Program-made: the position numbers and the translations under genes
Assembly (NCBI GenBank): GCA_040755395.1
Contig: JBFMAX010000001.1
Span: forward strand, 372,001 to 436,000
Direction of reading: 5' to 3'
DNA: 64,000 nt
DNA from: Nitrospirota bacterium
Lineage (GTDB): Bacteria; Nitrospirota; Nitrospiria; Nitrospirales; Nitrospiraceae
Notes under the pieces: generated by a model
Databases searched by the model: none
Told to the model about the DNA's origin: nothing
The model's input: the letters and a program-made list of their open reading frames with translations, nothing else
Shown here: one piece after another, positions 4,792 to 63,622 of the stretch
Layout: each line of letters starts with the position of its first letter
Position numbering within the stretch: position 1 is the first letter of the stretch

Positions 4792-4806
4792 TCACCCTCA
4801 TCGCTC

Positions 4807-4900
4807 GTGAACCGTGAACCGTTCGTCAGCATGGATTTCTGATCCTTCTTGCACTTCACATTTCACGTTTCACGTTTCACGCTTCACGCTTCACGTCTTA
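4807..4900. repeat. Heptamer inverted-array element, CGTGAAA/TTCACGT class
   Basis: The left arm has CGTGAAC, CGTGAAC, CGTTCGT (4807-4826). The right arm (4852-4900) has TTCACAT, TTCACGT, TTCACGT, TTCACGC, TTCACGC, TTCACGT, an unbroken 7-bp period. It lies between ispE and pilR and touches the pilR stop codon. Confidence 0.8.
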
Positions 4901-19658: not shown

Positions 19659-19779
19659 CGGTTCGTCGAGTTTGTCTGGTTCATCTGGTTTGTTTGGTTG
19701 CGAGGCGGCCCTGTTTCTCCGACTCGGATGTTCTCCCGGCATCTCAGCACGAAACAAACCCGATCAACCAAACACACCT
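19659..19779. repeat. Nonamer inverted array between murB and ddl
   Basis: The left arm uses 9-base steps GGTTCGTCG, AGTTTGTCT, GGTTCATCT, GGTTTGTTT, GGTTGCGAG. The right arm (19751-19779) contains AACAAACCC, GATCAACCA, AACACACC, complementary in kind. Same layout as the element at 26074-26155. Confidence 0.65.
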
Positions 19780-22191: not shown

Positions 22192-23400
22192 TCACGTGCT
22201 CCTCGCTCCAACAGACCGGTCGGTCTCATGATCTCCCCCCGTCAGCGCGTAACATTCCTTCACGATCGCCGCCGCCGCATCGGTTCGCCCCATCGCCAGG
22301 CTCCTGGCGCTCATCCGGGTCAACCGTTCCGGATCCTGCAACAGCTCCTTGATCGCCCGCGCCAGTTTCGGTCCGGTCAGCTCCGCCTGAGTCAGCACGA
22401 CGGCCGCCCCGGCCGACTCCATGACCTGCGCGTTGCGCGCCTGGTGGTTGTAGATCGCCTGCGGGAGCGGGATCAGAATCGCAGGCCTGCCGCAGGCGGT
22501 GACCTCGGCGATGGTGATGGCGCCGGCACGGGAAACCACCAGGTCGGCCGCGCGCAAGACCCGCGGCATGTCGTAGAGGAACGGCACGACCTCCGCACGG
22601 AATCCCGCCGTTTGATAGGCGGCGCTGACCCGGGTATGGTCCGCGTCTCCCGTCTGGTGCGTCACCGCAAGGCGCTCTCGCATGTCCGCCAAGTCCGGCA
22701 ACGCCTCGATCATCGCCGAGTTAATGGCCTTCGCTCCCTGGCTTCCGCCGAAAATCAGCAGGCGGAAGGCACAAGGCTCGCGGCTAGGGGAGACAGATTC
22801 AGCGCTCATAGCCAGCTCTCTTGCTTGCCGCTCGCCCCTCGCCGGGGACCCGTTGCTCCGAAGAATGCAACGGGTGCCCCCCTCGCCTTCTTCATAGAAC
22901 CCGCGCCGGATCGGCGTTCCGACCACCCGGACCTTCGACGGCGCAAAGGCCCCGGCCGCGGACTCGAAGGCCAGAAACACCCGCTGCGCGAAAGGCCCCA
23001 GGACTGTGTTCGCCATGCCGGGAGAGGCGTTGGGTTCCAAAATGACCCGCGGGATGCCCAACAGAAAGGCCGCCACGAGCACCGCCGGACTGGTATACCC
23101 GCCCACGCCGATGACGAGGTCCGCCCGCCGTCGGCACAGGATGCCGATCGACTGGCAGATGCCGATCGGGAGGGACAGCAGGGCCGTCGCCGCCTGAACG
23201 AATCCCCGCCCCATCACCGGCTTGGCCTTGATGAGCCGTAACTCGAAGCCCTCGTGCGCCAAGACCTTCGATTCGATGCCTCGCGCCGTGCCGACGAAGA
23301 GGATGCCGGTGTGCGGATCCCGCTGCAGGAATTCGCGGGCGAGGGCCACGGCCGGATAGAGGTGGCCGCCCGTCCCGCCTGCCGCGATCACGATGTTCAT
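22192..23400 (-). CDS. murG: UDP-GlcNAc transferase MurG with an in-frame insertion
   Basis: Peripheral membrane glycosyltransferase that adds GlcNAc to lipid I, making lipid II. Family blocks: [15 protein letters not shown] (1st G loop), [33 protein letters not shown] and [10 protein letters not shown]. Between the two lobes, residues about 172-211 (nucleotides about 22768-22887) are extra compared with the family. That piece is encoded by a heptamer inverted array plus a 9-bp-stem hairpin, in frame. Length 402 instead of about 360. The start overlaps the ftsW stop by one base. Confidence 0.94.
22768..22887. repeat. Heptamer array plus hairpin inserted in murG
   Basis: Left arm units AAGGCAC, AAGGCTC, GCGGCTA, GGGGAGA; right arm CTCTTGC, TTGCCGC, TCGCCCC, TCGCC. 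Next to it a perfect 9-bp stem ACCCGTTGC / GCAACGGGT (22848-22856 and 22867-22875) that recurs in the element at 60131-60410. Confidence 0.75.
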
Positions 23401-26073: not shown

Positions 26074-26155
26074 TGGTCTATCCGGTCTATCCGGTCTATC
26101 CGGTCTGTCTGGTTTGTTCGGTTTTACGCTCCAACCAAAGAAACCAGACCAACCT
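26074..26155. repeat. Nonamer inverted array between mraY and murD
   Basis: Left arm: GGTCTATCC three times, then GGTCTGTCT, GGTTTGTTC, GGTTTTACG (9-base period). Right arm (26130-26155): CCAACCAAAG, AAACCAGACC, AACC, complementary. Longest exact tandem repeat noticed in the window. Confidence 0.75.
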
Positions 26156-50296: not shown

Positions 50297-51483
50297 ATCG
50301 TATCAGGCAACATCCGATCCTGACCCTCGCGGGGCTGCTGATCGCGGTCGTCGCGGTGCTGGTCGTCTTCCGTCTGAGCAGCAGCAGCGCAAAGGGCGAC
50401 GGACGGAAGGGCCGCGTGATCACGGTCGGGACGATCACGCCGATCCGGCAGGATTTGGACGTGCGGCTCACCTACACGGCGGATCTCACGCCCAATCAGG
50501 TGGTGAACCTGTTTTCACGCGTGGACGGCTATATCGCCAAGATGCACGTGGACAAGGGCGATTTCGTCAAGGCCAATCAGTTGCTGGTCGAAATCGACCA
50601 CACCGACTTCGTTCACGCGGTCAACCAGGCCAAGGCCAACCTGGCCGCGGCCCGCGCGCGGGTCGCGCAACAGGAGGCCGCCCTCCGCAACGCCACGCTG
50701 ACCCTCGACCGCATGCAAGCCCTCATCAAGGACCAGTTCGTCTCTCAACAGGATCTGGACAACGCGCAGGTCAATTACGACGCGGCGGTCGCGCAGACGG
50801 ACACGCTTCGCGCGCAGGTCCGGCAGATGGAGGTCGCGCTGGCCCAAGCCGAGACCAACCTGACGTATTCCTACATCCGCGCCCCCTTCACCGGCTACGT
50901 GGCCGAGCGGAATTTGGATCCCGGCGCCTACGTCAGCGGGGCGACCGCCAGCACCAGCACCTTTTCGCGGGGAATCCTCAGTCTGCACGACATCGAGACC
51001 GTGCGGACGTTGATCGAGGTGGTGGAGAAGGACGTCCCGCTGGTGCGGATCGGACAAAAAGCGGAGATCAGGGCCGAGGCGTATCCGGACCGGATCTTCG
51101 AGGGCACCGTCACGCGGGTCGTCCAGGCGTTGAACCGCGCGACGCGCACGATGACCGTGGAGGTCGACCTGCCCAATCCCGATCACGCGCTTAAAGGCGG
51201 CATGTTCGCCCGCGTCGAAGTGATCGTCGGCACGCATCGGAACGCCGTGCAGATTCCGCTGGACGCGCTGACCCGTCTTGAAGACCTTCAATACGTCTAC
51301 GTCGTCCGCGAGGGCAAAGCCCGCCGCGTGCCGGTGGAGGTCGGCAGCCGCGTCGAGACCCGCATCGAGGTGACGAAAGGCCTGACCGGCGACGAGGAGA
51401 TCATCGTCTCGGGGAAGGACCTCGTCACGGACGGCACCGCGGTCCAGACCAAACCGCTTGATACCGTGAAACGTGAGACGTAA
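50293..51483 (+). CDS. RND efflux periplasmic adaptor (membrane fusion protein)
   Basis: 396 residues. One N-terminal membrane anchor (about 9-28), biotinyl/lipoyl half-motifs around GYIAKMHVDKGDFVKANQLL and SYIRAPFTGYVAERNLDPGAYV, a long coiled-coil hairpin between them (about 115-195), then beta-barrel and membrane-proximal domains. No lipobox. It links the inner-membrane RND pump to an outer-membrane channel that is not encoded here. Confidence 0.93.
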   Translation: MNRIRQHPILTLAGLLIAVVAVLVVFRLSSSSAKGDGRKGRVITVGTITPIRQDLDVRLTYTADLTPNQVVNLFSRVDGYIAKMHVDKGDFVKANQLLVEIDHTDFVHAVNQAKANLAAARARVAQQEAALRNATLTLDRMQALIKDQFVSQQDLDNAQVNYDAAVAQTDTLRAQVRQMEVALAQAETNLTYSYIRAPFTGYVAERNLDPGAYVSGATASTSTFSRGILSLHDIETVRTLIEVVEKDVPLVRIGQKAEIRAEAYPDRIFEGTVTRVVQALNRATRTMTVEVDLPNPDHALKGGMFARVEVIVGTHRNAVQIPLDALTRLEDLQYVYVVREGKARRVPVEVGSRVETRIEVTKGLTGDEEIIVSGKDLVTDGTAVQTKPLDTVKRET

Positions 51484-51556
51484 AACGTGAAACGTAAAAA
51501 GGACAGAATTGCATCTCACGCTTCACGCCTTACGCCTCACGCGTCACGCGTCACGT
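51465..51556. repeat. Heptamer inverted array between adaptor and pump genes
   Basis: Left arm (51465-51500): CGTGAAA, CGTGAGA, CGTAAAA, CGTGAAA, CGTAAAA, overlapping the adaptor stop codon. Right arm (51513-51556): CTCACGC, TTCACGC, CTTACGC, CTCACGC, GTCACGC, GTCACGT. Complementary arms between two genes expected to be co-transcribed; the pump ATG follows 7 bases later with no ribosome binding site. Confidence 0.85.
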
Positions 51557-60130: not shown

Positions 60131-60410
60131 ACAGGTTGTTGAAAAACTATGTCGGCGCCATCGAACCGCAGGACTCCGGCCGATGACTAACAGAATCAGA
60201 ATAGCCCGCAGGATGTTCAAAAAGGCCGTCGCACCCGCCAGGCGGGTACCCGGGCCGCAGCGAGCGAAGAGGCGAGGCGTACTCGGGGCACCCGTTGCTC
60301 TTCTTGCTGCAACGGGTCCAAGACGTTGAGCCTCTGAGCGTCAGACCCATTGCGCTACAAGAGCAATGGGTACCCCAACAAAGCTGGCGGACTTTTTCAA
60401 CATCCTGCTA
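60131..60410. mobile_element. Palindromic MITE-like repeat element
   Basis: About 280 bp, no coding. Near-identical terminal inverted repeats GCAGGATGTTcAAAAAG (60208-60224) and CTTTTTCAACATCCTGC (60392-60408) and a related outer copy CAGGTTGTTGAAAAA at 60132. Internal hairpins: ACCCGTTGC / GCAACGGGT (60290-60298, 60309-60317) and ACCCATTGC / GCAATGGGT (60345-60353, 60363-60371). The first hairpin also occurs in murG. Confidence 0.75.
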
Positions 60411-63531: not shown

Positions 63532-63622
63532 CGTGACACGTATCTCGTGAAGCGCATAATCACTCATCTCGACAATTACTCCCGATCCAGACGCTTCACG
63601 CTTCACGTTTCACGCTTCACGC
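63532..63622. repeat. Heptamer inverted array before hpnA
   Basis: Left arm: CGTGACA, CGTATCT, CGTGAAG, CGCATAA. Right arm: CTTCACG, CTTCACG, TTTCACG, CTTCACG. The hpnA start codon follows directly. Confidence 0.8.

Follow-up and report, generated by a model that had tools for sequence, protein, structure and literature searches.

In-frame repeat DNA in the inter-lobe linker of MurG in a Nitrospirota bacterium, probably derived from resident dispersed repeats

The window analysed here, a stretch of 64,000 nucleotides, belongs to a genome of 4.1 Mb (G000), the relatives of which are named Nitrospira or Nitrospirae MAGs. It encodes the peptidoglycan glycosyltransferase MurG within a dcw cluster whose other members are intact, and murG is an essential cell-wall gene. 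The full-length equivalog match to TIGR01133 scores 295 bits (cut-off 250), and the predicted fold is that of an ordinary MurG, with 3s2u and 1f0k as best Foldseek matches. The frame is open over all 402 codons and the C lobe is well conserved. Between the two lobes lies an insert of 40 stop-free codons, read in frame, the rest of the gene being normal (Table 1). The borders of this extra segment had been given exactly in the original prediction, which also placed it correctly, in frame between the two lobes.

Table 1. Features of murG, of its insert and of related hairpins in the window (positions are those of the window).
Feature	Position	Strand	Remarks
murG	22192..23400	-	402 aa; TIGR01133, Pfam GT28 N/C domains, Foldseek
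murG N-terminal lobe	22888..23400	-	residues 1-171; alignment with relatives; PF03033
In-frame repeat insert	22768..22887	-	120 bp; residues 172-211; pLDDT < 50 at 172-209
First heptamer unit GGCGAGG	22881..22887	-	upstream of nested hairpin
Nested REP-like hairpin GGGGCACCCGTTGC-ATTCTTCGGA-GCAACGGGTCCCC	22844..22880	-	37 bp; dispersed element
Heptamers GGCGAGG GGCGAGC GGCAAGC	22823..22843	-	in phase past the hairpin
Decayed inverted (3') heptamer arm TCTCCCCTAGCCGCGAGCCTTGTGCC	22768..22793	-	runs into native codons TTC CGC CTG CTG
murG C-terminal lobe	22195..22767	-	residues 212-402; alignment; PF04101
Second copy of the murG hairpin family	60290..60317		
Third copy, A-T stem variant (ACCCATTGC/GCAATGGGT)	60345..60371		

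On the gene strand, the insert reads GGCGAGG, then the hairpin (GGGGCACCCGTTGC ATTCTTCGGA GCAACGGGTCCCC), the in-phase heptamers GGCGAGG GGCGAGC GGCAAGC AAGAGAGC..., the inverted arm TCTCCCCTAGCCGCGAGCCTTGTGCC and finally TTC CGC CTG CTG, which encodes the native residues F R L L. The hairpin is of the form ACCCGTTGC-N10-GCAACGGGT and its stem (22848-22856 / 22867-22875) is a perfect 9-bp pairing that extends through GGGG/CCCC. When the hairpin is excluded, identity at lag 7 amounts to 0.51, compared with 0.21-0.32 at other lags, and this value was reached by 0/300 dinucleotide shuffles; with the hairpin included, the lag-7 signal was matched by 11/300 shuffles. The inverted arm, with a palindrome score of 18 versus a shuffle mean of 15.2, is not significant alone. 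The insert is a composite of two nested repeats, namely a decayed heptamer array interrupted by a hairpin; the heptamer array and the 9-bp hairpin originally described are thus both real, but they are two elements, one inside the other, and not a single one. With the borders chosen, which are uncertain by 1-2 bases in the G and C runs, neither the hairpin (37 bp) nor the remainder (83 bp) is a multiple of three, so the frame could have been kept only if the two came in together or a further indel restored it. The insert shows no sign of a target-site duplication.

Further repeats were observed in the window. The second and third hairpins stand in tandem within a longer dispersed repeat (60290-60371), a near-identical copy of which is present on another contig of the genome. 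Heptamer arrays were found at 4806-4896, 51465-51555 and 63591-63622; inverted arms accompany the first two (CGTGAAC/TTCACGT and CGTGAAA/CTCACGC, respectively). Nine-base tandem arrays (GTTTGTCTG; GGTCTATCC) occupy the murB/ddl and murD/mraY gaps (19670-19699 and 26075-26106) and add a third unit length to those of 7 and 8.

The murG hairpin is a dispersed element. Indeed, a BLAST search with it returned 48 places in G000, and 90 exact matches to the stem pattern were counted there, compared with none to the reversed control pattern. At position 5 of the stem, 75 copies from several genomes comprise 38 G-C pairs, 28 A-T pairs, 6 G-T wobbles and 3 mispairs; such paired changes indicate that it is the pairing that is preserved. 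Heptamer arrays, CCTCTCCCC...GGGGAGAGG palindromes and the loops of other hairpin copies all harbour copies of the element. The distribution of the stem is patchy: it was present in 21 of the 61 genomes searched as relatives and in 10 of the 118 drawn from across the phylum, G000 being included in both. In genomes G206-G258 (family f12), the same hairpin ends enclose longer loops holding an inner stem (GGCCGAAGGCC), and the element family therefore extends past the order. The heptamers are dispersed as well: 42 places in G000 match the murG array of genome G006, and the GGCGAGG type was present in all ten genomes searched. In G000, the dispersed copies of the hairpin and of the heptamer arrays lie for the most part between genes, which bears out the description of the insert as an element of intergenic type; the heptamer arrays sampled lie mostly at gene ends or between genes, and 1-2 of the 20 sampled places fall within a conserved gene. 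Most of the hairpin-spanning ORFs of G000 resemble shadow frames and were left out of the count. Among the first matches of each of 21 genomes, at least five hairpin loci are in frame in conserved genes, all of them from family f2 (5/8).

A link of the hairpin with RAYT/Y1 transposases was considered and rejected: no complete hairpin adjoins any of the four Y1 genes of G000 in the 2.9-3.3-kb loci searched, and a lone half-stem lies near one of these Y1_Tnp genes.

MurG was found in 171 of 175 genomes of the family, and the match mostly breaks at the linker, as ordinary short linkers do. In the relatives whose linkers were read, mostly 20-24 residues of unconserved sequence separate the last N-lobe motif from FGGSQGA, compared with 51 residues in the window MurG. 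The net gain is thus about 27-30 residues and not the 40 first proposed. The comparison set consisted of genera other than that of the window genome, and the long linkers encountered in these genera contain different repeats, all in frame. In brief, these include: GGCGAGA/GGCAAGA heptamers with an inverted arm (G019); GGGGCGA units followed by TCACGCY (G006); GCGGAAG/GGCAGAA units with an inverted arm (G030, G198 and G197); the octamer GGGGACGC, also with an inverted arm (G018); a probable array, decayed and weaker (G010); and perhaps an array in G023 and G033. A lag-7 signal was detected in the inserts of the window, G019, G006, G030, G198, G010 and, more weakly, G023, and a lag-8 signal in G018; four of the arrays (G019, G030, G198 and G018) are clearly palindromic. 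Of two ordinary linkers used as controls, one has no period and the other a lag-9 signal, neither of them showing 7 or 8. Between genera, the inserts are unrelated in sequence, length and composition. Most of the family has an ordinary linker and the array-bearing relatives have different arrays, so the outcome named in the original prediction as counting against it, one insert common to all relatives with a conserved protein sequence, was not observed.

The type of array in murG tends to match the genome's own dispersed repeats. Indeed, G018 belongs to the same genus as G030, G198 and G197 but has an unrelated array; its octamer occurs at 11 places in G018 itself, at 19 in G019 and at 28 in G010, and at none in G030, G197 and G198, and the G030 heptamer is present in genus mates and hardly elsewhere. 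For the GGCGAGG type, which all ten genomes searched possess, the match with resident repeats is not specific.

In a MurG tree from which the linker was excluded, the presence of an array requires at least four changes, and the grouping of array-bearing MurGs as one clade is rejected (AU test, p-AU 5.6e-5). The window MurG is sister to 26 ordinary MurGs (support 100/99), and the MurG of G006 is nested in a genus where the linkers of the other two members measure 20 and 25 residues. A single ancestral insert was rejected on the basis of the AU test against one clade, with the reservation that gains and losses are not separable on this tree and that loss may still explain the pattern.

Repeats read in frame were also identified in other enzymes by codon views, Pfam and alignment to solved structures. 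In brief: (i) PepA of G019 has an insertion of 13 residues relative to structure 8pz0, and that of G010 carries a different array in the same loop, where other genera have 13-20 residues; (ii) in Kbl of G040, nine extra residues (THCNQGAMG) form a clean insertion relative to 3tqx; (iii) TruB of G051 contains the hairpin within a larger palindrome, its congener G053 has the palindrome without the hairpin and G043 lacks the palindrome; (iv) PutA of G046 has nested hairpins in the linker between the proline dehydrogenase and aldehyde dehydrogenase domains; (v) LeuRS of G049 (with a small net change), Lhr of G018 (an octamer in frame) and a radical-SAM protein of G043 are further cases; and (vi) in G000 itself, an AddA-like nuclease, HrpB and a secretin-like protein were judged by domain layout rather than by close relatives. 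G051 and G053 form a filled/empty pair in genus g27, differing by 33 bp in frame, with an alignment gap and no clear duplication. The hairpin is read as TRC, THC, PVA or DPL in different genes, and there is no one conserved peptide. That different repeats are found at the same and at other protein sites across genera means that repeat DNA repeatedly turns into protein in these bacteria.

Three observations may be added on these loci. The PepA loop, with its different heptamer arrays in two genera (L152 in G019 and L153 in G010), is a second recurrent site besides murG. The TruB loci of genus g27 (L176, L177, L180 and L181) form a stepwise series comprising a plain linker, a part palindrome, a full palindrome and a palindrome with the ACCCGTTGC hairpin. 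In PutA (L108), a ACCCATTGC hairpin holds a ACCCGTTGC hairpin in its loop, both being read in frame.

Such repeats lend themselves unusually well to being turned into protein. On average, 5.4 of 6 frames are open in the hairpin copies, compared with 4.3 after shuffling. Heptamers of the GGCRAGR type are open in every frame on both strands, while those of the CGTGAAA type are open in one direction only, and TCACGCY arrays lying within genes have the open orientation. The AlphaFold model of the window MurG keeps the MurG fold around a disordered insert: apart from residues 63-65 and the C-terminal tail, pLDDT falls below 50 only at the linker (172-209), which is the only unstructured part between the lobes. 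The tolerance of the inter-domain linker that had been proposed is borne out by this model and by the repeated hits at this site, and MurG with its insert may keep full activity.

Taken together, it is likely that resident dispersed repeat DNA entered the inter-lobe linker of murG and was kept there. A palindromic heptamer array would first have taken over the linker in place of part of the native spacer, and the REP-like hairpin would have been nested inside it afterwards or together with it. The carrier process would probably be hairpin-recognising or replication-coupled. Its retention would be due to a reading frame that stays open and in register, and to its position at a site that tolerates a flexible loop. 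Movement of the hairpin and heptamer elements, as put forward in the original prediction, is strongly suggested, but indirectly for murG itself; the filled/empty pair of TruB involves the same hairpin as murG.

The array could instead have grown in place from a native seed (TTC CGC CTG CTG) by slippage and quasi-palindrome template switching, with lineages drifting to different units and only the hairpin coming from outside. The 3' heptamer arm does continue directly into native FRLL codons that resemble the next heptamers, the period is 7 in every array but one, where it is 8, inverted arms are clear in several of them, and such growth could form heptamer arrays in general. However, it would not explain why one unit recurs at dozens of other positions, the type of array in murG is that of the genome's dispersed repeats and differs among genus mates, and arrays occupy one loop of PepA in two genera; growth in place is regarded as rather improbable. 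It is unlikely that the insert is a selected protein feature, that is, a long flexible linker tuning lobe movement or binding a partner, since most of the family does without it and its sequence, length and composition are unrelated across genera. In genus g19, where an insert is shared, amino-acid changes are nevertheless fewer than silent ones (pN 0.027-0.068 versus pS of about 0.20, similar to the lobes), on tiny counts (2-5 versus 4), which hints that this fixed insert may be mildly constrained and not simply drifting.

A role as RNA, with a hairpin slowing ribosomes between the lobes or stabilising the transcript, appears very unlikely. A strong fold (-57 kcal/mol for the insert) is indeed positioned at the domain border, but it is modestly better than shuffles (z -1.6, with 14/200 as good), the sequences in other genera are quite different, and the hairpin is dispersed genome-wide, mostly outside genes, with no Rfam match in the 19-27 kb region of the window. 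As repetitive DNA can be misplaced by assemblers, an assembly artefact or a dying gene was also considered; it is hardly credible given the open frame of 402 codons, the conserved C lobe, the intact dcw neighbours and the occurrence of inserts of this kind at this site in unrelated assemblies. Entry of resident repeat DNA into the linker is thus the reading retained here. Beyond murG, there is perhaps an even chance that an active, lineage-wide process in Nitrospirota moves hairpin-forming repeats (heptamer arrays and the nested ACCCRTTGC hairpin) repeatedly into a small number of loops where essential enzymes tolerate them; repeat DNA would then continue to supply new disordered protein segments, with the resident family being exchanged over time at the same site.

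Several known systems resemble these elements in part. REP and REPIN sequences are hairpins of 20-40 bp, with GTAG/CGTC superfamilies linked to RAYT (PMC3733652). The Nitrospirota hairpin is REP-like in a broad sense, being a palindrome of 33-40 bp with dozens of dispersed, mostly extragenic copies and compensatory stem changes, but it differs in that copies are in frame inside conserved genes and that no RAYT adjoins; no consistent GTAG or CGTC tag was seen by eye at the hairpin foot in the flanks of 34 copies. MITEs are marked by terminal inverted repeats and a duplicated target site; the element described here is a hairpin in itself, and in the TruB pair the 33-bp gap shows no clear duplication. 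In the account of repeats given for Geobacter metallireducens, tandem heptanucleotide repeats (e.g. four GGACCGG units) amount to 49 copies, located in genes as well as between them; other classes of elements are listed as inverted pairs, and the interpretation given is that of regulatory RNA or binding sites (PMC2700814). The Nitrospirota arrays likewise consist of dispersed tandem 7-nt units, often in inverted pairs, but the unit sequences differ, and that account does not describe repeats inserted in frame into a protein at a single site in different genera. In Borg genes, tandem DNA repeats inside ORFs give rise to disordered protein segments (PMC9879509), as is predicted here; however, Borg repeats are direct, in perfect amino-acid register and carried by archaeal extrachromosomal elements, whereas the 7-nt units of Nitrospirota cycle through all frames, are palindromic and lie in chromosomal housekeeping genes.

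Palindromes that code for protein have been regarded for the most part as peculiar to Rickettsia. The Rickettsia palindromic elements (RPEs), as summarised in PMC10969869 (citing Ogata 2000, 2002), are dispersed palindromes that are translated in frame in conserved genes and also occur between genes; they are about 150 bp long, reside in obligate intracellular hosts and are described there as encoding a conserved peptide. By that description, the repeats found in murG, PepA, TruB, Kbl, LeuRS, PutA, Lhr and AddA are similar, being dispersed, palindromic and in frame in conserved genes. They differ from the RPEs thus summarised in consisting of hairpins of 33-40 bp and heptamer or octamer arrays, often nested, in free-living Nitrospirota, and in being read in different frames with no conserved peptide. 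In the open-access literature searched, neither repeats inserted in frame nor heptamer hairpins were found to have been reported for Nitrospira or Nitrospirota. Automated annotation and structural studies of Nitrospirota proteins can be expected to encounter such repeat-derived inserts, and the same-genus filled/empty pair of TruB, together with the nested copies, makes the old question of whether mobile repeats feed new protein segments directly testable. In summary, an RPE-like outcome is seen in free-living bacteria, where one loop of an essential enzyme holds different repeat families in several genera.
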